Positions 7,201 through 61,289 of a stretch of 64,000 nt of DNA are shown here, in pieces. The DNA is taken from positions 5,582,501 through 5,646,500 of the forward strand of contig OY987226.1 in NCBI GenBank assembly GCA_963920705.1, read 5' to 3'. The position numbers and the translations under genes were made by a program. Every line of letters begins with the position of its first letter. Positions within the stretch are counted from its first letter, which is position 1. The stretch is from Odiellus spinosus. Taxonomy: Eukaryota > Arthropoda > Arachnida > Opiliones > Phalangiidae. The notes beneath the pieces are model-generated. The model had not been told where the DNA came from and did not search any database. It saw only the letters and a program-made list of their open reading frames with translations.

Positions 7201-10200
7201 TATGAACGGAAAGCTGCAATGGGTGGACCTGGTGCTATGGGTGAGATCTTGCTGAAATTTTTGGTGGTTTTTGTCAGGACTTTATTTTAATCTCTAAGAT
7301 TATTTTGGTTTTAGAATACAAGAAAATGGAGAAAGAAGAACCTTATGACAGAAATAGAGAAAGAGAATTTGAAGGTCAAGAGCATCATTACAGAGATCAA
7401 AGAAGTTTATCTGGAAATTATGATGATAAACGAGACCCTAGGGAAGGATTCAGTGAAAGCGGTAGAGAATCTGAATCTTGGGCGAAGGAGTATGATCGAC
7501 CAAGAAGTTTGGTATGTTTGCTATAGCATTATACCATTCCTTCCTGTGGAAAGATAATAGTTTAATATTTATTTGTAAATCGTTAGAGTTCTTATGAAGA
7601 AGCGCAACCTCCCACTCCTAGCTCTAGTCACCCTGAAAAATGGGAGAAAGATCGACCTATGAGGCCTGATAGTAGAGACAGTAGAGCTAGTAGAGATTCA
7701 TCTCTCAGGGAAGAAAGGTAAACAGTTGATTTTCTTTTGTCCTTCATTATCTTTTTTTATGATGACCAAATAGAGCCAATCCCTTAAGTTTGTGTGATAA
7801 GGCTTTGTTTTCTGGTTAGCTTGTATATTTTTTACTAATTTGACCGATTAGAGATTGTTTTAACGGGTCAAGGTTACCTTTTTACAGGCCTCTGGTTGAA
7901 CGTCAAGAAAGCCAAAGCTCCACCCACTCGAGTGGTAAGGATAGGCGCAGTAGTAAATCTCATGAGGAATCAGAGACTCGCACGCCTCCCATAACTGATT
8001 GGGCCGATAGTCCTTACCCTGCTGAAACTAAAAGACGACCCCATGATTGGCATTCGCTTCCCCCTCCTCCAGCTGTGGCCCAACAGTTGGAAACAACTGG
8101 GACGTCAACCAGGAAAAACTTGACACCCCTAAAAAGAACAACGTCAAATTCTCGACCATCACCCGCAAGTAGCCCCTTAGACCGTAGGGGTCAGAGTGAC
8201 CCTAAAGAAGGATCCCCCTGTGACATTGGTAAAAAGGATTCTTTAGAGCAAGATATTAAGAGAGACGCTATCGGTAAGGAAGAGAAGAATGAACGTAACT
8301 TTGAAGCGCAAGAATTAAAAGATAGACATTCTGAGTCTCATTCAGACGGATCAAAGAGGGGGGATAAGCACGGTGATAAGAAAGATAGCAAAAGTTTGGA
8401 CGATAGGGGGCTAGATTCAAAAGAAAGACATCAAGATAGGAGGCGAGATAGAGGTGGTCGCGTCGCACGAGGTTCTGGAGGAAACCCTAGATACGAAATG
8501 ACGAATAGCAGAGGAGGACGTGGTGGTTATGCTGGAGGAGGCGGTGGGGGTGGAACTAGTAGAGGAAGAAGTAGGGAATACCGCAGATCCAAAACAGGGG
8601 AAAGAGGTCCTAGGTTTGAAAAAAGCGCCAGAGGTGGATCAGAAAGAAGCTCTGATAAGAGTATTCGTAAAGAAAAAATTGATAGTTCAGGTTCCGAAGC
8701 CGAACTTAGTAGTGGGAAAAAACCAAACCGCCTGCGCCAGAAAGATGAAGATAGTGAATTGTCGGTAGACGAAGTTAGTGCTTCTACAACTGATAGTGTA
8801 CACAATGAAACCAAGCCAGCTGTTACTTTAGAACTGAAACCAACGGATGATGACGCGGCTTCTAAGGAGAGAAAGTCTGAAAAACCCAAAGATAAGAAAG
8901 ATACTGGCCGCAAGCAGGATGATTCGAATGAATTAAAGTTAGGAACGAAAGAAGACAAAGGAGGCTTCTCTCCCCGTGGAGAGCCTTCTAGAAGAGGGCG
9001 AGGTGGTGGAGCCATTTCATTTAAAAGCTCACGCGGAACGAACATTAGATATACCTGTAATAACTACGGCCCACCTCCTTCGAAAGCGGCTTTCGGTTCT
9101 GGAAAAGCTTTTTCTAAACCAGAGAAGCATCACGACGATCACTCCTCCGATTTATCAAGAGACGATCACAAAGATAACAAGGAAGTTGATAAAGAACAAA
9201 TCGCGAACAGTTCCGTCTCTTCAGTTCAACTATCTTCCGCGAATAGTGGCAGTGCTGTGAATAATGAGAACCCTAACCAGGCTAATTATCGATCTTACGA
9301 GAAACACTCGCGTAAACCTAACCGCTACGAAAGTCTTCCTCCACGTTTGCAAAAAAGACAAGCCAGAAGATTCGAAGGCGCTAATCAAATTGAATCTTCG
9401 TCTTATCATAGTCGAGGTGGTAGTGGCAGAGGTGGCCGTGGAAATAGAAGGGGAGGTCCTATGGGAGGACCAGTTAATGTAGGAAACGCTGGTAAAGAGA
9501 ATATGTCAGACGTTGCGAATGAAGAGTGGGAAACTGCTTCCGAAAGTAGTGACGTTGGCGATAGAAGAGGCGGTGCTAATATGAAAGATGGTGGGATTCG
9601 AAAAGATGCTAAAGACAAAGTAAAAAAAAGTTTCTCCAGCCAGAGACCAACCACTGATCACCAAAATAGAAGATCGGGTGGCTATGATAATCGTTCGGGT
9701 TACGATCCTAGTAAAGGAGGGCATCGCAGCGATAACAGAGGAGTTGGACCTGGGAAGAATCCTGGTGGCGGAGGTGAGAAGTGGTCTGCCGGGGGTGGAA
9801 ATGCGGGAAGCAATCAGTCTTCCTATCATCAACGACAAAGCAACATGCAAAATCAGTATCAAGGTGGTGGAGGATATCAGAACCGAGGAGGTAACAGAGG
9901 TGGAAGCTCTGGCCAAGGAATGGGTCCGAGACCCAACACTACCGGAATGGGACCGAAAAATGAAAATCCAGTCGTTTATACGGTTTCAACTATTAACTAC
10001 GATCAACCTGGTATTCAAGCTGCTCTGACTGATCTATCTAATAGGTAAAATAATTTCTCTTCTGATTTAAGAAACCTGTATTATATACTAATTCTGTTCA
10101 CTTAGTTTTAATTGATTTAATCTATTTTTCCAGGAAAAACATGAAAAAGACTGAACCTAGCGCAACTCCTAAAGCACCTAAGCCAGAAAAAGAGAAAACT

Positions 10201-13200
10201 AACACGTTAGAGGGTTACGATCTTAACAATTTTGCCAGTGTAGTTATCATAGACGATCAGCCTCAAGTTTCGACTGATGATCCCGAGCTTATATGCGATT
10301 CTGAAAATGGCTTTCAAGAGGTTACGTCGAAAAAAAGACATAAAATTATGGCGGACAGTGAAGTCAAGAAACTGAAGAAAGAGGTTAGCAATTTTACACT
10401 TACAGAGTCAGACCTAATATTTGCGATGATGTTTAAAATAATCTGTCAATCCAATGAGAAAAAACTTGATGATTATAATCTGTAAAATTTGTCTGAGCCA
10501 ATCAATTTTCAGGGATCTACAAATGTATTATACTGCCGTTAAGACTTATTCAATTTTTTTTTTTCTTTTTGTTAGACTATGAATGGATCTATCCCAGCTA
10601 ATCGAATGAAAAATGGCTCCAGATCCAGGCCTAGTAAACTCCCTCCGAGATTGGCGAAACAGCGAGAACATAATAGATTGTCTTATTCGAGAAACGGGTC
10701 TGGTGGCCCTGATTCGGACAACGCTAGTGGTGGTGGCTCTCAGGGTCTTAACTCAAATTCGCATTCACAACAAGCCACGTCCAACATTAGTTCTTATTCC
10801 GCGTCAAATACTGCTCCAACTGATAGTTTATCCAACTCATCCAAAGCTATTCCATTCAGTAAGTACCAATATATCACTACTGTATCTTTTAAAGTTAATA
10901 TGCAACCTGACTCATGCCAAGCTTGCAAATTTAGTCTTTAGAAATTTGCAAGGCTGTTTTTACATAGAGCAATACAGTGAAAAAAAAGTCTCTTCCTACA
11001 CTCAAATAATTTTTGCTCCGCTTAATTACTCCAAAATAAAGGTTGAAAGTCAACGTTTTTTCGTCGTCGTGTGTCCCCCCCCCCCCCCCCCCCCTCCATC
11101 TTGTTCCATGTAGAAAAAGAAAGGCCAGCCAATCAGAATTTTTCTTTGGGAAAGTCTTTTGTTATGGCGCCACAATTCTACGGATACTTTTGGTTCAATT
11201 GATAAAGATTTTTATGGGAAATGTGGCGCCTTCTTCTGGGGACTTGCCACTTATATATATAATATTGTAAAAAAGACAATTTGATTGGCTCGCCTCCCTT
11301 TATCTCCAGAGTGGGACTCAAAATGGTGGTTGACATGTAAGTTCGAAATTTAAAAGTACTTGTTTAAATAAGTTTTTTTTTTCTCAATTTGCTGTTCTAA
11401 GATTCTTTTTTGTACCAAATAACATATTTTATGGTCTAAGAAATCGAAAAATTAAATTATCGCATATTAAGCAAGATTTCCTTTTGCTATTAATTTTAAT
11501 TATTATTTATTTATTAGATTCTCCTCCACCACCTGCGGTAAATGCGTGGGATAAACCCATAACGCACAGCCTTCAGCAATCCCAAAATGTTTCCTCAACC
11601 AATCAGAGCAAAGCTACTTCGACCCAACAAAGCTCTTCCGCAACAACTGTTGCAGCGACCACAAATTCGACTCTTCAACAAGAGCTTCAAGTACGTATTT
11701 GTAACCCTTGAAATTAGATAAAACCTTCTAAATTTTACGCATCTAATCGTATTTTGTTTTCAATTTAGGCACTAACAGTATCTTCCAAGTCAAGCAGCTT
11801 TGATCGCAGTGATCAGCATGATAGCGGGATTGACGTAAGTGATCAACCAGCTTCTACGGCTTCGTCTCAGCGTTCTTCTCCTAGCAATGATTGTAAAGCC
11901 TTGCCACCCGCACCAAATGCCGGGGTAGGTCTTCCGCAACCTACTGGGAAAGTAGGACTGCCTGCTAATGCAGAAAATCACTCTAATAATTTGGTAAATT
12001 TAGGAGTTAGTAAGATTTTCTGAGTTTGCCGAATGCCAATGTCTCGTGTCCAATGTTTTAGACTCATCTTTGCCTTGTTTTTAACTCCTTTCTTGTTTAA
12101 TATATATTATTTAGGCATCGGAAATTAATAGTGGCAAACTAAGCACCGTCATTTTTGAGAACAAGAATTTTAAAGCGGAAAACGCAGTTTTGGACAAATT
12201 TGGAGGACAAAATGGAAAATTAAAGGTACTATAGTATACTTACAGTCATTAAGAGCCTACAACTCTTATCGTTTTTTGTTTTGTTTTTTCACCGATTTTA
12301 AGCTCAGATTTGTAGGTAAAACTATTGGGCTTGATTATTAAGCCTTGTCCATTGAATAATATTTAGCCAAGCTTAATATTAGTTTGATTTTTCTGATCCA
12401 ATCAATTTCATATTTTTTTGCAGGGCTCCCATATTACCTATTATTCCCAGGTGGTCCTATAATAACCTATAATTGCATATTTATCCTATAAATACCTGTA
12501 TTTTGGTTTTATTGGTTAAAATTCCCTGAGAAAATATAAAAAAAAAATACTTCAAACATTACTTTTGGAAGTTCCCCAATTTGATGTTAGATCACGTTTA
12601 ATTCTGGGGGCGCCCTAGGTTGAAAGTACCTGATATTTTTCAATTATTAAGAAAATTTTGGTTAGTTAACTAGAAAAATTTCAAGTAAAATTTATTTGTT
12701 AATCGCTACACTATTTACTTACAAGTCCAAGTACCTGAATTCTAAATTTAATCAAAATATTAAAAATAAACTATATATTAATTATATTTATAAGTTATAT
12801 TCTTCCTATAAAACTCCAATATTCAGTTATTTTAAACATATAAACCTAGTATAACAAAGTTTTGGACCTATAAATTTATCATTTTTGGACCTATAAATAT
12901 GCTATAAATTGATATTTTTTGGACCTATAAATATCCTATAATTTTGGCATTTTCGACCTATAATACCTATTATTTTTTTGTGGACCTTGAGCTGGTAGCT
13001 CTGTATTTTTTGATATCATTTTGTCTATTCTGAAAACTTAATTTTCTCTACTGTCCTACTTAGTATTACCAAACTTGTGGTTAAAACTTGCTTAATATTT
13101 TTTAGGAGATGCCTGGAACAATGTCAACTGTAAATACGGCTATAAACGACGGAAAGAATTGTATTGAAAATGATAAACCTAAATCTCTTCAAATACCCGT

Positions 13201-16200
13201 GACTTTTACGAAAGAATCTTTTGGAAAAGTAAGTCTAGTTTTCTTAGAAATTAGGGGTGTGCGAGAGCTCAATAGAAGCTCGTCAGGATTTTAATCCCGA
13301 GCCTTAAACTCGTCACTGTTTTGAGCCAAAGCACTGCTTAGGAAAATTTTCCTTAAGAATATGTTCTTATAAATTAAAGTTAAATAAAAATTACAAGTTT
13401 AGTTTGTTAATTATAATACTTGATTTTAAATTAATAGTATATAGAACATTTTTAGGCTTGCAATGGAAAGGTTACATCATAAAGGCTGTATAATAAATTC
13501 GGAAAATTTACAGGGCTTAAACACGGCTCAAAACCTAAAAATCAGGACTCCCTCTTATTAATACTTTCAGCATATTCTGTAGTTCCGATTTTATATACAC
13601 ATTGATTCTAATCGGAAAGAAAACTGTGCAATATTAATATTAGCAAAATTAAACTTTTTAAATTTAAATTTAATTAAATTTTTAATGGTAGTATTTGCTA
13701 CATTTTAACTCTTAATTATAATAAACTTTTTTAATTTATATTTGCTTTAGGATGTGGATGGTAGCGAAATGAAGTTGGATTTTACATTTGACTCTGAATT
13801 AGACAGGCTTACCGATGACAAAAATGGAAGTTTGAACATTGGTTCGGTGCCTACTTCTACAGCGCAAGCAACCAATCTCAACACCGTTAACAAGCAACCG
13901 ATTGGCCGAAATATGAATCAGCCTCCTACTTCGTCAGCCTCCACCCCTGTAATCGGAGCCCAGTCTCCTATTTCACCTTCCACTGATGATTTGAATATGA
14001 AAATTGCCTCAGTTAAAAAGGTATGATTTTGCGATACCATTTTTCATGAATTTGCATTCCCTAAATTAAGCAAAGAAATGTAAATTGTTTTATTAGTTAC
14101 CCTAGGGGTGTGCTCGTGGTTTTTGGGCTTTGAGTCGAGTCCTATGGAAAAGCTGTAAATTGTATTCAAAGTTTTAATTTCTACGATAGTGCTTATCTTT
14201 ATTAACTTGAGTGGTTAAATGATTCATATCTCATCATGGGTTGAGAGTGTGATACCCGAATCTCAATCGGGTAATCACATTTTTGGTTACTCTCACGCCC
14301 CTACCTTAAACAGTTTTAACTCTGAACTAAGAATGACTTAGACATTTTATTGGTATTTTAACGAAATAAAGTATATAAATCTTCTCAGGTTTGGGAAATT
14401 ATGCCTTCAATGCCCACGGTAGTGGAACATAGCTCACCCGGTGCGACAAACGTGTCAGGAGCTTCCGCTGTTTCAGAGAAAGTGTCTCAGGTTATATCAT
14501 CTCAAGCTAGCTCAACCTTTGCAACTTTCTCTTCGACAGTCGACCCTAGTAGTTTATCCAGTTACACCAACACTGATGCTTGTTCAAACTCTAACATCAC
14601 TCCTCCTCTCGATGCCACTGCCATGGTTTTCAGGTTAGAATTTTTGAATAAATTTATTGAAGTAAATTGAAAGTCCAATAAAAAAAATTAAAGGTTGAAT
14701 CATTGTTGAACGTTTAGTCTTTGTAGGGACCCTTCGCTATCTCAACAACAGAATCAAGCAAATATGGGAGGCCCACCCAAAATGGGACCCCCAACCATGA
14801 TGGATCAGTCAAATATGTGTAAAGTTAGACCTCAGCAGCAACAACAACAAATGGGCAATTCACAGGCCCAGATGCACCATCAAAATTCTATGCCCGGATC
14901 GTGTTTACCCGGAGGAACTAACCCAGTTAGTCCACCTCCTAACCTATGTAATTTAGAAAACAACCTTTCTGGAATACGTACCATAGCCGGCTTAGCCAAT
15001 TCGGTTCAAGTTGGAATTCCAACAGCCATTCCCAGCCCTCCTACAGTGCTTTTTAATTCGTCGCAACCGGTAAATTACTCCTCCTCGAGTTGTTTAAATC
15101 GTTTTAAAACGATGCCAGAGTCAAATTCGTTTGTCCAGATGCCCCAGACTGGCCTGTATCAGGCTTTGCAAATGGATAGTACTCAGGTTATGTCTCAACA
15201 AAATCGAGCGGCGGTTGTAGCGGCTGCCATGGCCCAGTTTTCCCAACCTCCTCCGCCTCACCACGGTTACCCTCCTCTGGGTACTTTTGGTATTTCTCAT
15301 CAACCATCAAACGCCACTCAATTATCCGGCGCATTTGGACAACAGAGCATGTTTATGCAGACACATCCTCACGGGCCACCTGGTCCACCACCTCCTGGGT
15401 CTCAAGTTGCAACCCAGAAAGACTTATATCCTTCTGCTGGACAGTTTAGGGTGCAAGCGCCTTATGGTCAACCTCAACATGTCACGAATAATCAGGTAAA
15501 AATTTTTTCACTGGATTTTTGTAGAATGCAATATTTTGTTTTGAGTATTGTAGTCTTTAGTAGAAGACTTTAGAAAAAAACCTTCAGGGAAATAGCAAAC
15601 TGTAGATAAATGAATACAACCAGGCTGAACTGATGTATAACTAACTTCATTAAGATTAAATTAGTATAAACTCTCTGAGGTGGGCAAGGACAGGCGAAAA
15701 CCTGGTCCAGGTAAAGAAAAGTTCAGTGTCTCTATCCGGGGGACCTGTGCATATCTATCCCGTGTTTATAGTTAAATCTACATAAAAAGAGTTATAATAT
15801 CAACACCAACTCCCTATTCTCGTAATGTTGAATGTCTCATTGTTGATTAGAATAAAGTTTACTGTTGATCTCGTGGACTAGAAACAAATGACTAGTCTTA
15901 GTATATGAAAAAGTAGGCTAATAGAGCACAAAATTAAATTCTTTTCATCATGCTTCAAACTTCCTTATGAAAGGTTTTTATATATGTCTGGGTACTCTTA
16001 TTATAATGGTCTTGCCCTTTTTGTTTGTTGCTTACGTTCTATCAGCCTCGTATTACTTTTATACGTATGATTTAAATATATCCTTATTTTGAACAAACCA
16101 AATTAGGTTTTGAACCAGCAGAGTTTGCAGAACTCTCACTTGCTAAGCTCGCAGCTTATGTCAACAAGACCTGGCCAAGGGGGTAGTGGTGGTGCCAGCG

Positions 16201-21699: not shown

Positions 21700-22646
21700 C
21701 TATAAAACTTCACCCGCTTTGAATAGTTCTGGTGGCTTTCCAAAAGCTTCGTAGTAACAAACCTGGAACAATAATTAGAAGTTTGGTTCTTTTTGAGCTC
21801 CCTCAAATAATAAGTACAATAGGTTCTGCAAGCAAAAACCTGTTAACTATGGTTTTACTATTATATTTAGGCCATTGGCTTAGAGACTAGTACTTAATGG
21901 TAAAAAAATTGTTTTATATCATGAAATATCAGTCTCTAATCTACAGTGGGCTTTACATAGTCAAAAGGCTTCAGAAATATCCTGGTCACAGTTTCGTTGT
22001 GAACAAAATAAACTTTACGATGGTAGTGGCCATGATATATTCCAAGAGTGTAGCTGCGTCAGCTGGAGAATGAGCCAATTTTCCATATTCTATAGCCAAA
22101 CACCCATGAATGTTATTACTCTCCTATAAAATTTGATTTAAATTTAGAATACAATTTGATTTGCTGTTGAAAAAAATCTATGAACTACCAACCGGGGATG
22201 TTACGTGGTTGCACAAATAGTCCCTAACTTCATCAATTGTCGCGTTTTTGTGATCGAAATCTTTTGTCTCATGCTCACACTTTGCTATGGCATCTTTGAG
22301 CTAAAACATTGGTTTTAACTTTTCATTTTAACAAAAATTAAATCACCAAGGATAAATCTATATGTTTACATTGTAATCTTTAGATGAGTCAAACCGGCAT
22401 GTCCTGTATTTTTTCTGGGCTTCTGCATCTTCACTCTTTAAACCCTCTGCAATGAGAAAATTCTTTTACCACCTCAAATATAGCGAGGACATGGATATGT
22501 AAATCCTTACGGCAACTTAGGAATGTAATCCGTTTCGCGATTTGAGACACGTTTACTTTGAACTCTGGTTCTGGACACTGGCCTCTTGTTGGTAATGATA
22601 CCAGAGAAAATACATAGACAGTTCCCAACAATAACCACGGAAACAT
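21700..22646 (-). CDS. Novel small secreted cysteine-containing protein
   Basis: Five minus-strand exons join in frame to 158 residues: 22646-22511, 22446-22370, 22300-22205, 22123-22019, 21762-21700. All introns are GT–AG. The N-terminus (MFPWLLLGTVYVFSLVSLPTRGQC) is a signal peptide; an in-frame upstream ATG at 22664 is also possible. The mature part is about 135 residues with seven cysteines (near residues 24, 45, 62, 79, 101, 111 and 140), two N-x-T/S sites (NVS, NAT) and predominantly helical-looking sequence. AATAAA on the minus strand lies about 30 bp past the stop. I do not recognise the family. It converges on the PRRC2 3' end. Each exon is short, so a simple ORF search hides the gene. 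Confidence 0.75.
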
Positions 22647-22664
22647 ATAGTACGAGCTAATCAT

Positions 22665-23460
22665 ACCAAAGCTCCTTATTACCGCCCCTGTTGTTTTCAA
22701 ATCCCTACCCACGTCTGATTCAAGACGAAAATTTCATTAATTATTAATGCTTTAGTTAGGATCCATTGTTAGTTTATGTAGCAGGTGAATGTACACTATC
22801 TTAATTAACTTCTTTTGACTATGTTTGGTAAAGCCAACAGTGATGCGTGTTGACCGCCTTGCTTTGAATAGTTTATTTGATGAAAGTATTACATTTATTT
22901 TTTAGTCGAGATATAGCGTGGTACTGATCCCCTCTCCTTTAAATGTTTGGATTTGCTTCTGTGGGAATCTTAATTGAAATTTTGGAAAGGACAAAGTTAT
23001 TGATTTAGTCTGTTTCATCAAGAGAAATATTTTCGCTTATGATTTATAGTAACTAAACGTAAACTTGCTCAAACGGCAAATATTAATGGTCTTTATAATT
23101 ATATTTATTAAAGAAAGTAGGTATAGGTCTAAAATTAAACTTTTTGTAAATAAACCGTTTCAAAATTCCCTTAATTTTATTGTAGCTGCGAATGTTCTAT
23201 TCAAATTTGGCGGGAACTTTCGGAGAAGGCAGATTGCGTAGATTATAGAAATAGTTCCATATATTTCTACTCCAATCTGTCTTTATACTTCCTGGAATCT
23301 TTCGGGATTCTCATGCAGAATAAAGGGGGGATTTGAAAATGGGGCAAAACTTGTTGCCCTATAACTAAGCTTAAATACGCGCATTTCTACGCGCAGTACG
23401 GAGAAACTTCCGCTGGTTCTCTCACGTACCAATGAAGAAACGTATCTTTTAAGCTTGTGG
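22665..23460. other. Intergenic region between divergent genes
   Basis: It separates the minus-strand secreted-protein gene from the plus-strand snoRNA host transcript. No exon was recognised. TTTGGCGGGAA at 23206-23216 resembles an E2F site and lies about 250 bp before the host transcript; this is motif resemblance only. Confidence 0.4.
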
Positions 23461-23945
23461 AGCTGCTGGGAGCTTCTACTCCTGTAACTCCTCTTCCTCT
23501 ATGCTTTCCTCTTCTCCCGACAGGTCACGCTGTTTGCTGTCATCAATCATCATGTTGCTGAGCCCGGAGGTCGCCCTGCCCTGGAAATCGGAATCCATTT
23601 TTGGAGAGGACAAGATGTGGGAAAGACGCATTTATACTACCGAAGATATTTTGGTCGTTGTAAGTATTGAAATCTAGAGTAATCTTGGTTTTGTAACGAA
23701 TGTTAGTTGTAAATAACATTTTAATTTCGTTATATATTAAACGAAGTAGTTTGTCAATTAAATATTAACAATAATAATAAGAAATAGAGTTTAGGAAATG
23801 TGACTCTGACTGAGGCATGCTTAATCGCCATGTTAAGCCTTGTAAGAAATGTTAATCCTAATCTCAGAGTTAAAAGATAACTTTATGTATGGTTGAATTC
23901 TTAAAGTCCGCCAATTTCGGGGTATATTATGAATACTTTTGTTTT

Positions 23946-24016
23946 GTTGAAATGATGATCTAATAGAGCCAATCCCTTGAATTTGTTGTGATAACACATG
24001 TCTATTACTGATCAAC
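23946..24016 (+). ncRNA. C/D-box snoRNA, host intron 1
   Basis: Terminal stem GTTGA (23946-23950)/TCAAC (24012-24016), C box ATGATGA (23952-23958), guide-like AGAGCCAATCCCTT before a D'-like TTGA, C' TGTGATAA, and D box CTGA (24008-24011). The D box is 74 nt before the acceptor. The guide is complementary to AAGGGAUUGGCUCU of 28S rRNA as I remember it, a region methylated under U32/U51-type guides. The exact homologue is not assigned. A paralogue lies at 7757-7820. Confidence 0.7.
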
Positions 24017-24208
24017 ATAGTCTTAGTGTTTTAAAATTAATCGAGCCAAATTTGTGGTTATAATTTGAGATGATAAATATTGCAGAAAGAACCTGGAGAT
24101 AAATTAATGATGGAAATAATTCACCAAAGGATGTGAAATATAAAATATACGTACCTATCGCGGGTATGTTTTTAGAAAAGTAAGTCCAATTTCACTTGTA
24201 TAAGTTAA

Positions 24209-24350
24209 GCACATTCTGTAGATCTGATTTGATAAACTCATTGATCTAAATCGGAGGGAAAAATGTGCCAAATTAATTTAAGCAAAACAATTTTTTTCTA
24301 AAGGTTCACAAAATTGAACCTTGTGTAGTTGTTTTGTTTCAATAACAAAA
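24209..24350 (+). ncRNA. H/ACA snoRNA candidate, host intron 2
   Basis: Hairpin 1: GCACATT (24209-24215)/AATGTGC (24262-24268), enclosing TCTGATTT/AAATCGGA, with pocket strands CTGTAGA and GGGAAA. The hinge carries AAATTA (ANANNA, 24270-24275). Hairpin 2: AAGCAAAACAA (24280-24290)/TTGTTTTGTTT (24329-24339) around AAGGTTCA/TGAACCTT, with an internal loop on both sides. ACA is at 24345-24347, six nt past the stem. The paralogue at 13570-13705 supports the fold. The target uridine is not assigned. Confidence 0.6.
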
Positions 24351-24538
24351 TATATCTAGTTTCTTTAAATAATCAAAAATGAGTTGTAATTTAGGATATT
24401 TTTTTCTTAGGCTTTGAAAGAAGTGAAATGAAGGTTAATTTAACCTTAGGTTGGGAATTGCACTAAATATTGAAGTCGGACGTTGAATGAAAAGGTGAAT
24501 AAGTATTAATTTTACTTTTAATGTTGCATATCTCCGTT

Positions 24539-24626
24539 AGGATTACCTTGTTAATGATGAGTATTTATCTTGGTCTGTGTTTCTGAATTAATGATGGATA
24601 AGATACCTGAGTGCTTAATTAATCCT
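24539..24626 (+). ncRNA. SNORD18: U18 (SNORD18) C/D-box snoRNA, copy 1
   Basis: C box ATGATGA (24554-24560), D' CTGA (24583-24586), C' ATGATGG (24591-24597), D CTGA (24607-24610), with flanking AGGATTA/TAATCCT pairing. The stretch TTGGTCTGTGTTTC before D' is the U18 guide. It pairs over 14 nt, with one G:U, to GAAACACGGACCAA of 28S rRNA recalled from memory. Vertebrate U18 has TTGGTCCGTGTTTCTGA at the same place. The D box lies 76 nt before the acceptor. In mammals U18 is hosted by RPL4. Confidence 0.8.
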
Positions 24627-24785
24627 TGCTATAAGTATAATATGGTTTCATGTTCTTTGGCTAATGTTTAATTTAAATTTTCTCAGATTCTAAGGATTTG
24701 CGTATCAGGTCTAACCTATGCCTAGAGGAAATCTGCAAACTAAATTAAGGTAAAGAAAGAAACCACTTTTTTTTATATGATTAAC

Positions 24786-24870
24786 AATTGAATGTGATGA
24801 TCGTTTATCTTGGTCTGTGTTTCTGACTTAATGATGGAATTAAGATACCTGAGATTTTAAATATTCAATT
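24786..24870 (+). ncRNA. SNORD18: U18 (SNORD18) C/D-box snoRNA, copy 2
   Basis: Terminal stem AATTGAAT (24786-24793)/ATTCAATT (24863-24870), C box TGATGA (24795-24800), the same guide and D' CTGA (24823-24826), C' ATGATGG (24831-24837), D CTGA (24849-24852), 67 nt before the acceptor. The core from TTTATCTTGGTC to GATACCTGA is nearly identical to copy 1 while the flanks differ, so boxes and guide are conserved after duplication. Confidence 0.8.
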
Positions 24871-24999
24871 TACAATCATTGTAGTTTTTATTGGTTTAAC
24901 AATTATGTAAAAATTTCAGGTGTAAGAAACTCAATGATCATTCTTGATGGCCTTTTAGTAATTAATGGTAAGAGTTTACGTATGAATTTAGGTTTATTT

Positions 25000-25090
25000 T
25001 TTTAAATATGATGAATATCCAATCTTAACTTTGGCTGTGGTTCTGAGCTACTGTGATAGAAGAAAGATTTATCTGATATATTAAGAAAGA
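25000..25090 (+). ncRNA. C/D-box snoRNA, host intron 5
   Basis: C box ATGATGA (25008-25014), D' CTGA (25043-25046), C' TGATAGA (25054-25060), D CTGA (25073-25076), 70 nt before the acceptor. The ends TTTTTAAATAT and ATATTAAGAAA can form a stem. The guide before D' (TTTGGCTGTGGTT) is perfectly complementary over 12 nt to AACCACAGCCAA, a conserved 28S rRNA stretch recalled from memory. I do not assign a vertebrate name. Confidence 0.7.
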
Positions 25091-25621
25091 ATGATTGAGA
25101 TCAATGTTTGAGGGAAATTTGGTGAATTAAAGTTTATTTTTTTCAGATTAATAAATGCTACAAGTGATGTAATTATACCCTACATCTTCAAGGCTTGTTG
25201 CGTTTGGGCTTTCTTGGAATTAATGTTGGATCTATAATAAATACTGAATTGTCAATTGAGACATAAAATGCAGAATTGAATCTTTTTTCTTCTTTTGCCT
25301 TTTCTGGCACACCAATATGTTCATAAGGGCACTGAAATAAAATAAAAGTTACTATATATTCTTGGTGATTTAGGCTTGAAATTATTTACATGTCTACATG
25401 CATTACCACAACATTTCCCTCTCAAATAGTGATAAAGTCCTGATAGTACTTTGAGCCCGCTTTCTGGGTCCTTGTATGTAAATTTCCCAGTCTACAGTGT
25501 TAAACATTAAAAAATGGATTAAAAAGTAGTCCTCGCTATTATGCTAGTTTTCATAGAAATAGGGGTGGGAAGATGGGGGTTTATTTCGACCTAAATAGGT
25601 TTCAACTTCCCTTGAACGGAA

Positions 25622-26339: not shown

Positions 26340-29300
26340 ATGGGATCCAGAATACGGTAAATATAAAAATATATTTTCTTAACTAAGGCTTAGGTAGCAG
26401 TGACACCCCACTGGGTTGACGGTTGACCTGACCGTTTCTAACTTAACAACTTTTTGACCTACACAATTTCTTATTAAATGATGTAATTACTTTAATTTTA
26501 GTTAATCATATAACACTCCATATAATAATTTTCAGGCTTTTTATTTTACGATTTTGTTTAATAATGTAAGTTTCATTAAAATGACTATTAGCGAAAATCC
26601 GGATCACATATTTGACTGCTTCTGTGAAATAGTTATCCCATCAAATTCAGATGAAAGTAATTAATTTTAAAATTTATTGTTCAAACCCTAAAGTTAATTT
26701 TATCATTGCTTTTAACATTAGATGCGTGGGTTATTCAAAAATTTCCAGAAGATTACTCAAACCAAGAAGTTTTAAAATCAATTCCGCAGTTTGCTTATCC
26801 GTGTGAATTTTCTCCGTAAGAAATAGTTTATTATCACCTTTTTTACTCGCTCGTTAGTGGAGGAAATCTAGAAATAATGAATTTAAAATTGTTTTTAGGG
26901 AAGCGGTGCAACACTTTTCATTTGTTTTAACGAACATTGATAGTAAATGGACTTTTGGTTTTTGTCGGCACGCTCCCAACACGCCAACATGCTTTGTCAT
27001 GTTAAGTTATTTACCGTGGCATGACACATTTTATAAACTCCTAAACAATGTAGCAGAGCTAGCGAATAAAGGGGTAAGATACGGTTTAATTTATCCTTGT
27101 TAAAGTAGACATGCAACCTGACTCAATTCGGGTCTCATCAAACTGGGGAATTTCTTTTTCAAGGGTTGAAAAATTTCCCCATGCTGTTTATACATGAGCG
27201 TGACGTAGTAGTTGCTTTATTTCATAGTGCTCCCATATAATAACCAAAGAAATTGGCATACTGAAAGAGGACAAATAACCTATTTTTGTCAAAAATATTC
27301 CAAATTGGAAAAATTCCAACAATTTGACCAAATAGAAATAATGAAATAACCTAAATTCAACAAAAATGGACCAAATTTAAAATGTCTTTGGTCCACTTTT
27401 GTTAAATTCAGGTTCTTTTATTAGGCTGAATTCTGTTGGAATTTTCCAATTTGGACTATTTTAGACAAAATTATGCGATTTGTCCTCATTTGGTATGCGA
27501 ATTTCTTTGGTTATTCTGTGGGAGCACATTGAAATGAAAAGCAACTACGATGTCACACAGCTTAGGGAATTTTTTCGTTTCTTCAAAATTATACTCAAGT
27601 GCTTGAAGTGAGATCAGTTTGACGAGGCCCGAATTGAGTTGGATTGCTGTCTACTTTCTACTTTAAAGGGAGAATGAAGTCTAGCGAAGTTTTTTTTAAT
27701 TGATTCCTGAAAATTAAAAATAATCAATAATAATAATTCATAAGAAAAAAGGTTAAACAGACTTGCAAATTGTGCAGATTTTACAAATGAGGCTCTAATC
27801 ATTAGGGTAGTAGCCATTAACGAAAAAAAGTTAGTATGATCTGAAGAGGTCCTCAAGAACCCTACAAAAGTCTTGGGAAAGTCCTTAAGACTACCCCAAG
27901 ACTTTTTGACATAATGAAAGACTACCCCAAGACTTTTTGACATAATGAAAGACTTCCCCAAGACTGCGTAAGACACCCGAAAGGCTTCCCCAAGACCTCT
28001 TAAGACTGAAAGCTTTCTCAAGGAAGCCACTCCGTTAAAATAAACATGCAAACTGACTCGATTAGAGTGTTGTCAAATTAAATCTTCAAGAATTTTCATT
28101 TGAATGTCCTCCCGTAGAAGAAAGAATGAAATCAGCCTTCCCTCTGTATTAAAGTCTTCTAATTTCGTCAAAAATGGTGTAAATTAAAAAAAACTCCAAC
28201 AGAATTAGACCAAATGAAATCAACCCAAGTTCAAAAAAAGCTCCTTTTGTCCACTTTTGTTGAATTCGGGTTATTTCATTTGGTCGAATTTTGGTTTAAT
28301 TTTTCAATTTGGATAATTTTTGACCAAATTAAAAGATTTATCTTGATTGGGTTTAAGCAGATTTCTTCGTTTTTCTTGAGGGAAAAGTGAAACTGAAATA
28401 ACTTGTTTAATCAGGGTCTAGTATTTCTTTAAAAAAAGGAATCATTAAAAAAAATTTAAGGCAGATAATATAACTGTTCAGATCACCCCTTTACAAATAA
28501 TAATAATAACCCTCATTCCATCATTGCCCTAGTGTTTTTCCCCGAATCTATTACAGTTTCTTTTTAATCTTTATAGGCGGGGGATTTATGGAAATTTTTA
28601 GAATGTCTTTATAATACCGAAGTTCCCAAACCGGGCTTGCAACTTCATTTTGCCTATAATAATGGCCAGTCCGTGAGTTTCACTATTTGTCTTTTTTATA
28701 TTTTCGGAAAAGGGTGATAAGCAGCAAAATAAATTTCATCCAAACGAATTCTCGTAAAAGGACCTATTCAAAATATCTCTTAAAATCATTAGAAACTTGC
28801 GTTTTTACCCAATCTTTTTCTTGAGAAATTGGAATTTTCATAAAAGAGGAGTGGTCAAGTTATTGTACGTAATTGTAGCTCTCTTTTGAGCGAAGCTCAC
28901 AATAAATCTCGTGTTGTGACTTGTTAGTTATTTTTCTCATGATGTGGCGCCACTATTTGAAATTTACATTCCACAAAATTTCACATAGGTGTGCATTCAT
29001 TAAGACTTTTTAGAAAAAACATTGAAAAAATGAGCTGCTAACTGTGTTTGCTTATTAAAACATTCGGGAAATGTCTTCGAATTGTGCAGAAAATTGTGAA
29101 AGATTTAGCTTTTGGCATTTGATTAAAAGGAGAACCTCTGACTAATCAAAAGGCACCCCACATTTGGCTTCATATTAAATACCTGTGACACGCTCTTTTG
29201 TACTCACGATTGTGTGAGTAAAAATAATCATGAACAAGGTTTAGCACGATTCAAAGAGTTTTACAAAGCCAAAGGTGGGTCGTCTTTTGATAGGTACTCC

Positions 29301-43756: not shown

Positions 43757-46700
43757 ATGAACGCTGGTTTGAGCTTGTTTCTCGTGGCTCTAGGTAAATA
43801 CTTGTACTTTTATACGTAAAATTTGATCCATTCATAATTATTATAATATACCTTATTTTAAAAAAATACAAACTATCGTTTAGTAGCCGTTCAAACACAA
43901 GCTGAAAAAACGAATTTCAAATGTCCCTTACCACGAGGATCTTACCGGCATCAGGAAGACTGTAACGCCTTGTACTTTTGCAGCGATAATGTGCCCGAGT
44001 TAAAATACTGTGCACCAGGACTTAACTACAATAGGTTAACCGAAAATTGCGATTGGCCAGAAGCTACGCAATGCATCAAAGGTACATAATTTTATTTATG
44101 CTCTTTAAGTTCTACGTCTCTCTAAGTACCAATAGTGTCAGTTTTCGCCCCGTCAAATTTTTTTCGATACGTTAACGCTTCTACAGACTTAAACGATGGA
44201 ACAATTCTGCTGAGAACTGAGAGCTTGCTCCTCCTTTATTGATATTGAATATATATTATATTTAAGTTTATGATATATTGAAAATAATCAAAATAAGCTC
44301 ATGATTTCGGGACCATCGTAGCTATTTTTATATGAAAATGTATAGGAATTTACTTTTTACTACCTGTTGATTGACAGATTTATCTAAACATAAGCCTTTA
44401 AAATGTTGAACTTAATGAACATTTTATTATTTTCATTTGATTAACTCAGGCCCGTTGACGGATACTGATTTTTATGAGGTGGCTTTCAACCCCATCGATG
44501 ATTCCAACCTTTACGAGGGAAGCGACATCCGATGTCCACCTACCGATTGTAATTGTAACATTCCCGGACCAGAGCCGTGTAGCCCTATATACTACAAATG
44601 TATCGGAAGAAAACCTCATAGGCAAAAATGCTCACCCGGACTAGTATTTGATCCAAAGAACTCTCTCTGCAACTTTCCCAAAAACGTGAAAGGGTGTACC
44701 AATACCACTAAACCTCCCCCGACTACCACTAAAGCCCCTCCGCCTACCACTAAAGCCCCTCCGCCTACAACTAGAGTCACCCCATCTGGAGTTTGTAACA
44801 ACTTTGGAACGGGACCAGACCCTCACCCGACAAATTGTTCTAGATTTTGTTTGGGTGGCGAAGAGATGGACTGCCCCAAGCCTCTACATTACCATCATCC
44901 CAGTAGACGTTGTGAATGGCCCTGTATTGCCCTGTGTGATCCAAAAGAAAAACCTTGCCGTAAGTAGTCGACCTGTCCTGTTTACAAGTGATACTATTTA
45001 GTACTTACGTCTTCACTATAATCTTTCAACAAAACAGCCACTAACACTTCTCCTTCGACTCCAAGTACTCCTTCCACTCCAACTAAGCCAACACCTAGAC
45101 CTAGTGTTTGTACTAACTGGGGCACAGGACCAGATCCCCACCCCAAAGACTGCGCCAAATTCTGTCTTGGCGGGGAAGAAATGGACTGCCCTAAACCACT
45201 GCATTACCATCACCCCAGTAGACGTTGCGAATGGCCCTGTATCGCACTATGTGATCCCAGCGTAAAACCTTGTCGTAAGTAGCCGTTATGACCCTGTTTT
45301 TAAGTAATACTATTTAGTACTTACGTCTTCACTATAATCTTTCAACAAAACAGCCACTAACACTTCTCCTTCGACTCCAAGTACTCCTTCCACTCCAACT
45401 AAGCCAACACCTAGACCTAGTGTTTGTACTAACTGGGGCACAGGACCAGATCCCCACCCCAAAGACTGCGCCAAATTCTGTCTTGGCGGGGAAGAAATGG
45501 ACTGCCCTAAACCTCTGCATTACCATCACCCCAGTAGACGTTGCGAATGGCCCTGTATCGCACTATGTGATCCCAGCGTAAAACCTTGTCGTAAGTAGCC
45601 GTTATGACCCTGTTTTTAAGTAATACTATTTAGTACTTACGTCTTCACTATAATCTTTCAACAAAACAGCCACTAACACTTCTCCTTCGACTCCAAGTAC
45701 TCCTTCCACTCCAACTAAGCCAACACCTAGACCTAGTGTTTGTACTAACTGGGGCACAGGACCAGATCCCCACCCCAAAGACTGCGCCAAAATCTGTCTT
45801 GGCGGGGAAGAAATAGACTGCCCTAAACCACTGCATTACCATCACCCCAGTAGACGTTGCGAATGGCCCTGTATCGCACTATGTGATCCCAGCGTAAAAC
45901 CTTGTCGTAAGTAGCAGTTATGACCGTGTTTTCAAGTGATGCTATTTCGTACGGACGACTTCACTTTAATCTTTCAACAAAACAGCCACTAACAGTACTC
46001 CTTCGACTCCAAGTACTCCTTCCACTCCAACTAAGCCAACACCTAGACCTAGTGTTTGTACTAACTGGGGCACAGGACCAGATCCCCACCCCAAAGACTG
46101 CGCCAAAATCTGTCTTGGCGGGGAAGAAATTGACTGCCCTAAACCACTGCATTACCATCACCCCAGTAGACGTTGCGAATGGCCCTGTATCGCACTATGT
46201 GATCCCAGCGTAAAACCTTGCCGTAAGTAGCCGTTATGACCGTGTTTTCAAGTGATGGTATTTAGTACGGACGACTTCACTTTAATCTTTCAACAAAACA
46301 GCCACTAACAGTACTCCTTCGACTCCAAGTACTCCTTCCACTCCAACTAAGCCAACACCTACTCCTGGCATTACTACTCCAAGTCCAAGTAGGTCTTAAC
46401 TTAAAAAAATTGTAGGGCTTAAATAATTATTTTACAATAAATATCATCAGAATGCAAGGAAGGTCTATACCCTCACCCCGATTGCTGCGACAAGTACATT
46501 CATTGCATAAACGGAGTAGAGATAGTCAAGGAATGTTGCGAAGGCTTGAAATTCAACCCGGCGACCGAAATGTGTGATTGGCCGGAAAACGTTGTTTGTA
46601 AGTCAATTAATTTAAGACTGAAAAAATAACGTAGATTCCATGATCATCGAAAGGAGCTAATATCGGATAGTCTAGAGTTCAAATTAAAGTGACCGGCCAT

Positions 46701-47401
46701 TTTTTTATTCTGAGGTAGTCGTCCTTTTAGTCAAGGTCGCCTTTAAAGCTTGACATCATTAATAATGAATATAAAAATGACAATTCCTTTCTTTCCCATA
46801 ATTATAGAAAGGCTAGCTTTATCGGTACTTAAAGCGAAAGCAAAACCTCTCTTTAAAATATAATCATTTTTAAAAATTGCGATAATGAACAGCAGTTTGG
46901 ATTTATAGCTTCTTTAATAAATCCGATGTTATAGGTCCATCAAATAACACTACCACAGTAGCCCCACCGACGATCTCTCCTCCAGTCGGCAACTGTTCTT
47001 GCAGTTGTTGCATGGTTCCCGACACATGTGACTGCAATAAATTCCTTCTCTGCGAGGATAATAAACTGTACATTAAATCGTGCCCCGAAGGATTAGTCTT
47101 TAACCCGGCTACGGAAAACTGCGACTTCCCTTGGAACGTCGCGAATCCGGTCTGCAAGAAAACAACAGCCAGTTCATACGGGAAGGCGGCTTTGTACACG
47201 CAGATTCACAAACCTGACGCTCCAATTTGTCAACTGGAATTTGGTCTCTTTCCCGACAGCACAAACTGCGGTCGTTTCTACCACTGCATGAACTGGCGCC
47301 CGTATTCCAAACTGTGCCCTCAAGGATTGCATTGGAACGCTATAGGCAACACGTGCGACAGCCCTTGTAACGCCAAATGCGACGAGAAGGTTCAATGTTA
47401 A
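43757..47401 (+). CDS. Chitin-binding protein A with tandem CBM14-like exons
   Basis: Ten exons join to 797 residues: 43757-43793, 43884-44081, 44450-44959, 45038-45274, 45354-45590, 45670-45906, 45986-46222, 46302-46388, 46451-46597, 46935-47401. Signal peptide MNAGLSLFLVALVAVQTQA, then a CBM14 domain (exon 2), a second CBM14 plus a P/T linker and an odd cysteine module (exon 3), four near-identical 79-codon exons each with an STPSTPTKPTP linker and the same module (CTNWGTGPDPHPKDC…CEWPCIALCDP), a truncated linker-only exon 8, and three more cysteine domains in exons 9-10. All internal introns are phase 1, so exon gain keeps the frame. Likely a secreted mucin-like cuticle or peritrophic-matrix protein. 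Gene B is its paralogue. Confidence 0.85.
45038..46301. repeat. Four tandem 316-bp exon+intron units
   Basis: Units start at 45038, 45354, 45670 and 45986, each exactly 316 bp: a 237-bp exon plus a 79-bp intron. Units 1 and 2 are almost identical, introns included; unit 4 and the following partial exon at 46302 share AGTACTCC and the GACGACTTCACTTTAATC intron variant. The near-identity of introns indicates recent unequal exchange or gene conversion. It gives repeated identical minus-strand shadow ORFs. Confidence 0.9.
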
Positions 47402-61000: not shown

Positions 61001-61289
61001 GACCAAGGAGATCAAGAAGCTCAAAGTGGTGAAGAAATTCTTATGGAAAAAGATGGCGCATACAAGTCTGCGAAAGACAAATCCAAGCTAAATGTAAGTA
61101 CAGTTAAGTTAACCACTCTTGATGGGTTAATGGTTTGTTTTTCAGGAGGAAGCCGGTATTTATCGTTTTCCATCATCGGAATCGGTTAACGACTCGGCCT
61201 TTGTGGACAAAGACGATAGGGGATTACTTTCCGGATCAAGGTCATCGTCTCAACCGGACAAATTTCGTCGTTTCTTCCAACGACTTTAA
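55041..61289 (+). CDS. VgR: Vitellogenin receptor-like LDL-receptor family protein
   Basis: Fourteen exons join to 1,796 residues: 55041-55119, 55185-55541, 55645-55770, 55833-55949, 56011-56524, 56583-57100, 57176-58111, 58178-58429, 58488-58982, 59045-59200, 59262-59773, 59835-60682, 60757-61093, 61146-61289. Order: signal peptide (1-26), four LDL-A repeats (~27-187), two EGF, YWTD propeller, EGF, YWTD propeller, EGF, eight LDL-A repeats (~885-1240), two EGF, third YWTD propeller, EGF-type modules, transmembrane helix (~1663-1685), and a tail of ~111 residues. The 4 + 8 LDL-A layout and length match tick yolk receptors as I recall them. Family role: endocytic uptake of vitellogenin into oocytes. 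The tail has FKNQMF (1704-1709) where FxNPxF/Y is expected, and a GLL motif. Intron 59774-59834 is only 61 nt. Confidence 0.9.

Follow-up and report, generated by a model that had tools for sequence, protein, structure and literature searches.

A putative non-coding snoRNA host gene in Odiellus spinosus, probably duplicated in part from an adjoining PRRC2-like gene

The plus-strand locus from 23507 to 25360 of the window, i.e., of the 64-kb stretch of Odiellus spinosus DNA analysed here, very probably constitutes a spliced gene without a recognisable message that carries five intronic guide RNAs for rRNA. With good probability it is a host gene of the Uhg/SNHG kind with four C/D and one H/ACA RNAs in its introns, and one whose introns 1-2 and exons 2-3 were probably duplicated from an adjoining PRRC2-like gene. 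The locus is missed by ORF-based annotation, just as the original prediction had held, as well as by Rfam at default thresholds, and because both overlook it, the number of snoRNAs credited to such genomes may be too low.

Gene structure and coding potential

As judged from sequence alone, one snoRNA-like element resides in each of five consecutive GT-AG introns (23660-25146), and the order C/D, H/ACA, U18, U18, C/D given in the original prediction is borne out. The gene is composed as follows:

23507..23659, plus strand: exon 1 (predicted start; donor GTAAGTATTG at 23660)
23660..24085, plus strand: intron 1 (426 nt, GT-AG)
24086..24179, plus strand: exon 2 (acceptor region like the exon start at 13106 of the PRRC2-like gene)
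24180..24410, plus strand: intron 2 (231 nt, GT-AG)
24411..24494, plus strand: exon 3 (similar to the exon at 13751 of the PRRC2-like gene)
24495..24686, plus strand: intron 3 (192 nt, GT-AG)
24687..24749, plus strand: exon 4 (bounded by GT-AG introns 3 and 4)
24750..24919, plus strand: intron 4 (170 nt, GT-AG)
24920..24967, plus strand: exon 5 (bounded by GT-AG introns 4 and 5)
24968..25146, plus strand: intron 5 (179 nt, GT-AG)
25147..25360, plus strand: exon 6 (AATAAA at 25236 and 25336; predicted end)

Pyrimidine tracts at 23489 and 23507 in the exon 1 region are possible starts of the TOP/TCT type; the start originally proposed, 23465, lies slightly 5' of both. In introns 1, 3, 4 and 5, the end of the D box precedes the acceptor by 74, 76, 67 and 70 nt, respectively, exactly as first reported.

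The longest reading frame in the spliced exons comprises 52 amino acids, or 69 if exon 1 begins 5' of 23507, and spans the exon 1/2 junction. Among 2000 shuffled transcripts, 222 contain a frame at least as long, and protein searches with the exon 1-2 frame yielded neither a Pfam match nor a homologue. The host exons hold no reading frame beyond chance, and an apparently non-coding host gene, as originally suggested, is the best reading.

C/D snoRNA candidates and their predicted 28S targets

Four of the introns contain C/D candidates:

23947..24016, plus strand: intron 1 C/D snoRNA candidate (C box 23952-23958, guide 23964-23975, D' box 23977-23980 reading TTGA, D box 24008-24011; predicted ends)
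24549..24621, plus strand: U18-type C/D snoRNA candidate, copy a, intron 3 (C box 24554-24560, guide 24569-24582, D' box 24583-24586, D box 24607-24610)
24789..24856, plus strand: U18-type C/D snoRNA candidate, copy b, intron 4 (C box 24794-24800, guide 24809-24822, D' box 24823-24826, D box 24849-24852)
25004..25080, plus strand: intron 5 C/D snoRNA candidate (C box 25008-25014, guide 25029-25042, D' box 25043-25046, D box 25073-25076)

A scan for boxes alone was of little use in the window, where it returned 31 candidates on the plus and 23 on the minus strand. The guides are far more discriminating. All 110 box-defined guides of the window were scored against a yeast 25S rRNA sequence that shows the expected nucleotide at each of 15 known methylation sites compared. 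A 28S pairing score of 12 or more was obtained for four guides, exactly those of the C/D candidates in introns 1, 3, 4 and 5, followed by a guide scoring 10.3, with a maximum of 10.9 among controls. Against an independent target, the eukaryotic LSU sequence L003 (1778.7 bits), each of the four guides beat 60 of 60 shuffles, and the other 26 box positions tested were each equalled by at least 3 of 60. The 28S-complementary guides of the original prediction are thereby supported.

The guide of the intron 1 RNA forms 12 Watson-Crick pairs with 28S GGATTGGCTCTA and is predicted to direct modification of U1937 (yeast numbering, as throughout), a site absent from the known-site lists that were compared; its weak points are a mismatch adjoining D' and the D' box itself, TTGA. 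In the U18-type copies, C, D' and D boxes are all present and the D' guide makes 15 pairs without mismatch, with A649 of 28S as predicted site. Both these guides and those of the intron 1 RNA and its paralogue described below are identical or almost so, and the flanks have diverged. When the genome was searched with U18 copy a, at least two places were found, both in the host gene. For the intron 5 RNA the predicted site is A2361, by offset Am2362 of Arabidopsis. Assignment of the intron 1 and 5 targets to the U34 (Um1888) and U46 (Am2256) sites was rejected, as counting on the yeast 25S sequence gives 1937 and 2361.

Terminal stems, which the original prediction had listed as agreeing evidence, stand for intron 1 only: its GTTGA/TCAAC stem is matched in 10 of 1000 shuffles, and those of introns 3, 4 and 5 are no better than chance (805, 347 and 696 per 1000). 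Stems in wider flanks of 32 nt are modest, with 32, 59, 69 and 188 per 1000 shuffles as good for introns 4, 5, 1 and 3, respectively; in intron 4, positions 24773-24793 pair with 24862-24884. Searches with Rfam models, named originally as a check, returned matches to snoRNA families in all five host introns, each below the curated cut-off, and no match anywhere in the window reaches its gathering score. SNORD18 (RF00093) gave 30.8 bits for copy a, 25.2 for copy b and 22.9 for the intron 5 RNA; because the gathering score is 41, none of the three is filed under this family. Even so, the two copies in introns 3 and 4 appear to function in the manner of U18.

The intron 5 RNA is possibly a U18 copy with an altered guide. 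Comparison with the two U18 copies gave z values of 3.4 and 4.8 with the guide and of 1.1 and 2.7 without it, and values around 3 do not decide kinship because an unrelated pair, the intron 4 RNA and a SNORD110-like RNA of the neighbouring gene, reached 3.0. Identification of the intron 5 RNA with plant snoR118 was discarded, the alignment not including the guide. A more far-reaching reading, which we advance tentatively and regard as doubtful, is that of a young host gene whose origin is still readable: a two-intron duplicate that lost its frame, and in which a deletion and a substitution would have shifted a U18 guide from the 28S motif AAACACGGACCAAGG to a similar second one, AACCACAGCCAAGG, with a methylation site listed for Arabidopsis and here in an animal. 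If expressed, the intron 5 guide would offer a test case for a guide RNA shifting to a new rRNA site.

The H/ACA snoRNA candidate of intron 2

Intron 2 harbours the only H/ACA member:

24207..24350, plus strand: H/ACA snoRNA candidate (two hairpins, hinge AAATTA fitting ANANNA, ACA 24345-24347)

The fold is better than that of all 200 shuffles (z -4.2). The 5' pocket, GUAGA/GGGA, pairs with 28S CCC-U-A-UCUAC and predicts pseudouridylation of yeast U2340; this target ranks first in two LSU sequences, yet is equalled by 5 of 200 shuffles. For the second hairpin, the best site is equalled by 61 of 200. As in SNORA58 (RF00418), there is a two-hairpin fold with a hinge H box and ACA, and the pocket letters GUAGA and GGGA are retained; unlike in SNORA58, fewer pairs are formed in the 3' half of the 5' pocket, and the match attains 29.5 bits against a gathering score of 75. 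We take the human target of SNORA58 to be psi3823 and its yeast counterpart to be snR9/psi2340, for which a literature search brought no confirmation.

Relationship to the neighbouring PRRC2-like gene

We assume the adjoining protein gene to be PRRC2-like on the basis of its motifs; the name had no Pfam support, and a protein search with one of its frames gave no homologue. The following elements occur in its introns:

7755..7816, plus strand: paralogue of the intron 1 C/D snoRNA (C box 7759-7765, D box CTGG 7812-7815, off consensus)
10421..10496, plus strand: SNORD110-like C/D snoRNA in another intron (32.3 bits, cut-off 64)
13022..13105, plus strand: intron tail, possible decayed C/D relic (D box CTGA 13030-13033, guide absent)
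13561..13705, plus strand: H/ACA snoRNA paralogue (ACA 13700-13702; 3' pocket strand AAG for GGG)

The intron 1 RNA resembles the copy at 7755-7816 with 88% identity over 43 nt (7759-7800), the H/ACA RNA that at 13561-13705 with 70% over 143 nt (13561-13702). The paralogous copies in the protein gene that formed part of the original prediction are thus confirmed for two of the five RNAs. At both 7755-7816 and the relic, the D box lies 72 nt upstream of the acceptor end (7887 and 13105, respectively). From D box to acceptor, the relic tail matches host intron 1 with a z of 5.7 and none of 1000 shuffles as good (13022-13106). Neither covariation nor the count of paired cells is significant for the two H/ACA copies (224 and 67 of 500 shuffles as good, respectively), and weak H/ACA matches elsewhere, the best of them on the opposite strand at 40308-40223 with an E of 0.001, were taken as AT-rich noise. 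Paralogy of the SNORD110-like RNA with the intron 1 RNA found no support, 58 of 500 box-preserving shuffles being as good; the two have CAATCC in common because their rRNA targets are similar.

The acceptor regions (-50 to +80) of host exons 2 and 3 find their best matches among 937 acceptor-like sites at 13106 and 13751, i.e., at two successive acceptors of the PRRC2-like gene and in the same order; this test was run after the alignment had been inspected. The likeness of these exons, like the altered guide proposed for intron 5, goes beyond the original prediction. Shared splice motifs contribute to the acceptor scores. Since exons 4-6 best-match unrelated sites with scores of 94-97.5, compared to 91.5 and 100.5 for exons 2 and 3, only the location of the best match is informative. 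For three of four stretches tested for duplication, 0 of 1000 shuffles were as good. On the donor side, host intron 2 has the neighbour's donor 13229 in third place among 230.

Exon sequence alone shows no likeness to the PRRC2-like gene above chance over the whole window. Taken by itself, exon 3 is matched by 9 of 1000 shuffles; by halves, 13751 ranks third on the exon side and eighth on the intron side, and for exon 2 sites other than 13106 rank first on either half. The peptide likeness SEMKVNLTLGWEL/SEMKLDFTFDSEL, scoring 31, beats 60 of 60 shuffles at the matching neighbour exon but is not above chance when the entire neighbour is considered, with scores of up to 39 for shuffles and 38 for other host peptides. 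An unexplained match of exon 5 lies at the tile 13201-13301, with a score of 42 versus a shuffle maximum of 39. Collinear homology with the PRRC2-like gene is suggested by introns 1-2 and by the first parts of exons 2 and 3, is weak for exon sequence only and is absent from exons 4-6.

The RNA paralogues together with the acceptor matches of exons 2 and 3 make it probable that part of the host gene is a degenerate copy of the PRRC2-like gene, and it is fairly probable that introns 1-2 and exons 2-3 stem from a duplicated two-intron stretch.

Proposed mechanism and alternative readings

According to this model, a two-intron stretch of the PRRC2-like gene would have been duplicated, probably in this direction, with decay of the exons in the copy and retention of the intronic RNAs. 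The host gene would be transcribed and spliced at five introns into an exon RNA without recognisable message, and each excised intron would be trimmed to one guide RNA. The four C/D RNAs may then direct 2'-O-methylation of 28S at U1937, twice at A649 and at A2361, and the H/ACA RNA formation of pseudouridine at U2340.

A non-coding host that arose without segmental duplication, in which snoRNAs were gained singly through copying, RNA-mediated or otherwise, and exons 2-3 resemble the neighbour by chance, appears rather unlikely. It would accommodate the finding that the intron 1 RNA has its nearest counterpart in the copy at 7755-7816, in a different neighbour intron, and not in the relic at 13022, as well as the weak exon-only scores, the lack of matches for exons 4-6 and chance sites that score alike; AT-rich sequence and common splice motifs could yield the exon 2-3 likeness. 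That exons 2 and 3, out of 937 sites, best match two successive neighbour acceptors, and in the right order, argues for duplication instead, as does an alignment running from the H/ACA RNA through the intron tail into the acceptor, which was equalled by 0 of 1000 shuffles.

We consider it improbable that the locus is a protein-coding gene with its introns in an untranslated portion, with the exon 1-2 frame or a further 5' exon providing the product and the snoRNAs residing in 3' UTR introns. The junction-crossing frame and a precedent, the supposed non-coding host dUhg6 of Drosophila that turned out to belong to the protein gene mfl (PMC1821038), are in its favour; the chance-level length of that frame and its lack of Pfam matches and homologues speak against it. 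Highly improbable is the notion that the snoRNA elements are dead copies, in which boxes and guides remain and nothing is made or used. Although Rfam scores below threshold and weak terminal stems would fit, the guides still form 12-15 pairs with conserved 28S, those of the duplicated U18 and intron 1 RNAs have stayed (nearly) identical next to differing flanks, and the genome search with one U18 copy gave no further place among the matches listed.

Comparison with known systems

The putative host gene resembles the Drosophila dUhg genes (Uhg1-Uhg8) and the vertebrate SNHG genes, spliced non-coding hosts of intronic snoRNAs, in having one snoRNA per intron, a C/D spacing of about 70 nt and no frame beyond chance. 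This architecture is already known and not new, because non-coding host genes with one ncRNA per intron and a spacing of about 70 nt have been described in Drosophila (excerpts of PMC1821038); Uhg clusters are likewise named in part of PMC13228274. The possible pyrimidine-rich start recalls TOP/TCT hosts (PMC6954239, in part). A likely difference from dUhg and SNHG genes is the resemblance of exons 2-3 to an adjoining protein gene.

With U18/SNORD18, whose site is given as Am649 in yeast and Am1313 in human (PMC8817022, in part) or, for yeast, as Am647 (PMC3511168, in part), the intron 3 and 4 RNAs share the C, D' and D boxes and a guide pairing with 28S AAACACGGACCAAGG; they differ in falling below the Rfam cut-off and in occurring as two copies in adjacent introns of a non-coding gene. 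A related arrangement is described in PMC1821038, as far as its excerpts go, for Drosophila mfl (Nop60B), whose introns each contain one snoRNA, among them an H/ACA RNA and C/D RNAs present in duplicate; the copies of DmSnR60 lie at a distance of about 70 nt from the acceptor. Whereas mfl is protein coding, the host gene reported here is apparently non-coding.

Some lncRNAs are fossils of protein genes (PMC5577775, in part), and the word 'snoRNA' is absent from the text of that source as available. If true, the duplication would provide a concrete route from a protein gene to a non-coding host, with parent and offspring adjacent and the intronic RNAs kept. Like the fossil lncRNAs, the host gene would have exons with relic protein-gene sequence; unlike them, it is apparently retained for its intronic RNAs and would represent a partial duplicate whose parent still adjoins it.

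Location and Coding Potential of the Host Gene

The host gene is small, lies on the + strand and is situated between a long gene with open frames, which we take from its motifs to be PRRC2-like, and a gene with DENN-domain exons. A Pfam search of six frames of the PRRC2-like gene gave no match; domains found in the window include CBM_14 chitin-binding, DENN and LDL-receptor, which suggest an arthropod-like animal.

Gene models at the locus
about 1.1-18.1 kb, +, PRRC2-like gene, long, open frames
..23659, +, host exon 1
24086-24179, +, host exon 2
24411-24494, +, host exon 3
24687-24749, +, host exon 4
24920-24967, +, host exon 5
25147-about 25360, +, host exon 6
introns 1-5, +, 426, 231, 192, 170 and 179 nt, all GT-AG
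from 26.9 kb on, gene with DENN-domain exons (Pfam)

Elsewhere in the window, 55124-61189 holds a gene for an LRP2-like receptor that has both class A and class B LDL-receptor repeats, near-identical cysteine-rich frames occur at 44419-47401 and 52246-53775 (pairs 44419/52246 and 46889/53263), the former stretch with four near-identical 86 aa units (45022, 45338, 45654, 45970), and an inverted repeat at 27216-27538 (97 nt arms, 85% complementary) resembles a MITE-like hairpin with sub-threshold Rfam microRNA matches.

Repeated stops interrupt all three frames of the joined host exons. The longest ATG frame of the transcript (start at 23507) comprises 52 aa, a length equalled in 222 of 2000 exon-wise shuffles, while a 69 aa frame obtained with a longer exon 1 had neither a Pfam match nor a homologue. 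As the 52 aa frame ends in exon 2, upstream of four junctions, the host RNA would, if translated, be open to nonsense-mediated decay, which is named for snoRNA host genes in an excerpt of PMC5765348. Pyrimidine tracts near exon 1 (23489, 23507) could represent a TOP/TCT start as described for other snoRNA hosts (PMC6954239, excerpt). A 100 aa frame on the - strand (22431-22733), which has a hydrophobic stretch, looks signal-peptide-like by eye and gave no Pfam match, is oriented head to head with the host; the two may have a common promoter region.

Evidence for the Intronic snoRNAs

The Rfam check named in the original prediction had a divided outcome: at gathering scores the whole window gave no match, but sub-threshold snoRNA matches were present in all five introns. 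The permissive search (3.5 kb) yielded 13 matches, every one to a snoRNA family and on the + strand. Among them, a SNORA13 match inside exon 6 (25199-25350, 20.4 bits) is regarded as chance.

Permissive Rfam matches in the host introns
intron 1, +, SNORD110, 24.9 bits (cut-off 64)
intron 2, +, SNORA58, 29.5 bits (cut-off 75)
intron 3, +, SNORD18, 30.8 bits (cut-off 41)
intron 4, +, SNORD18, 25.2 bits (cut-off 41)
intron 5, +, snoR118, 22.1 bits (cut-off 44)

Boxes alone are little proof because the window is AT-rich; guides, unlike boxes, set the C/D candidates apart from chance. Thirty box positions (four C/D candidates and one neighbor) were compared with 60 shuffles each against a eukaryotic 28S rRNA contig (JABSRU010000113.1) in a gammaproteobacterial MAG, where it is probably a contaminant. 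The guides before 23977, 24583, 24823 and 25043 were better than 60 of 60 shuffles, while each of the remaining 26 positions was equalled by at least three. A window-wide scan used a yeast 25S sequence with the correct letter at 15 of 15 known methylation sites checked and scored 67 plus-strand and 43 minus-strand guides; it is blind to 18S guides and missed a copy at 7755 with off-consensus boxes. Exactly four guides scored at least 12 (13.6, 13.6, 13.3, 12), and these are the predicted 28S-complementary guides of introns 1, 3, 4 and 5; the fifth-best score was 10.3 and the maxima of reversed (22 guides) and complemented (63 guides) controls were 10.9 and 10.3. The H/ACA RNA of intron 2 folds with z -4.2 (0 of 200 shuffles as good). 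The original observation is real, and its reading as a snoRNA host gene is very probably correct.

The two U18 copies are clearly duplicates of each other (z 11.6). A search of the 443 Mb genome with copy a gave no place other than these two, a lower bound because diverged copies may escape. The intron 5 RNA resembles the two copies (z 3.4, 4.8) mostly via its guide; with the guide removed, z fell to 1.1 and 2.7, while an unrelated pair reached 3.0. The two 28S motifs resemble one another, so the guides may instead have converged.

Predicted rRNA Targets

The methylated position is the fifth nucleotide from the D' box. For introns 3 and 4 the predicted site is A649 in yeast and A1313 in human, i.e., the U18 site (PMC8817022, excerpt; yeast 647 in PMC3511168 section 6). 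Intron 5 is predicted to target yeast A2361, which corresponds to Arabidopsis 2362 by the offset of the pairs Am2257/Am2256 and Cm2338/Cm2337 in the available part of the PMC11542601 table. Am2362 is listed there with human Am3867 in the same row, maybe a neighboring site, as the offset from A2361 gives 3865. The intron 1 guide points to yeast U1937 (by offset Arabidopsis 1941, human 2886). This site is absent from the same part of the table, which passes directly from Um1892 to Um2114 and names human and yeast sites only if conserved in plants, and a text search for six such site names matched solely a plant Um2886, at a different place; on this weak evidence the target may be new.

With regard to the H/ACA RNA, yeast U2340 ranked first for the 5' pocket in both LSU sequences (5 of 200 shuffles equal), while none of the targets of the second hairpin was convincing, its best site being equalled by 61 of 200 shuffles. 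The SNORA58 sites would be human psi3823 and, in yeast, psi2340 (snR9), an assignment that a literature search did not confirm.

Copies in the PRRC2-Like Gene and Origin of Introns 1 and 2

The paralogous copies claimed for the neighboring protein gene were recovered for two of the five RNAs, the C/D RNA of intron 1 and the H/ACA RNA.

snoRNA-like features in the PRRC2-like gene
7755-7816, copy of intron 1 C/D RNA (43 nt, 88%, E 2e-8); 17 nt guide block identical, D box CTGG, acceptor 72 nt on
10421-10496, intronic SNORD110-like C/D RNA (32.3 bits, cut-off 64); guide ATCTGTCAATCC, D box CTGA, 79 nt to acceptor
13022-13105, intron tail; D box CTGA kept 72 nt before acceptor, guide absent
13561-13702, copy of almost entire H/ACA RNA (70%, E 2e-17); fold z -2.1 (3 of 200 shuffles as good), 3' pocket strand altered

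The guide at 10421-10496 fits 18S GGATTGACAG, and 13022-13105 is a possible decayed C/D relic.

The H/ACA match does not end with the RNA but continues over the intron tail and reaches into exon 3 (24195-24487 of the host, 13554-13836 of the neighbor). When acceptor regions (-50 to +80) were scored, after this alignment had been seen, at 937 acceptor-like AGs that do not belong to the host gene, exons 2 and 3 matched best at 13106 (91.5) and 13751 (100.5), successive acceptors of the PRRC2-like gene in the same order. Only these places are notable and not the scores, as exons 4, 5 and 6 reach 94-97.5 at unrelated sites; with halves scored separately, 13751 ranked third and eighth for exon 3, and other sites were ahead of 13106 for exon 2. 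In a control with 1000 dinucleotide shuffles, which takes no account of common splice motifs, three stretches were never equalled: the one that follows the H/ACA RNA, exon 2 together with its donor, and the part of intron 1 between D box and acceptor. Exon 3 by itself was equalled in 9 of 1000. Comparing exons only across the whole window, neither exon 2 nor exon 3 was significant. At the peptide level, the neighbor's exon reads SEMKLDFTFDSEL and one frame of exon 3 reads SEMKVNLTLGWEL, with a stop two codons later; their likeness of 31 was better than 60 of 60 shuffles at that exon (maximum 24) but not exceptional against the whole neighbor, where shuffles reached 39 and other host peptides 38. 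Exon 5, taken with 15 nt on either side, has a match to the PRRC2-like gene at the tile 13201-13301 (42, shuffle maximum 39), which collinear duplication does not explain. On balance, introns 1-2 and exons 2-3 probably derive from a piece of the PRRC2-like gene that was duplicated and then decayed; the reading as a snoRNA host is surer, to the point of leaving little doubt.

Processing Signals and Comparison With Known Host Genes

The D-box spacing originally noted, 74, 76, 67 and 70 nt before the acceptor, was reproduced for introns 1, 3, 4 and 5. The terminal stems invoked alongside it held for intron 1 (10 of 1000 shuffles as good) but not for introns 3, 4 and 5 (805, 347 and 696 of 1000); with wider flanks, intron 4 was suggestive (32 of 1000) and introns 5, 1 and 3 less so (59, 69, 188). 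The architecture of the host gene as such is already known, and what would be surprising is how it probably arose, together with one or two of its predicted targets, which are unusual; its D-box-acceptor spacing fits that of vertebrates and of the Drosophila DmSnR60 genes, for which similar distances are given in an excerpt of PMC1821038.
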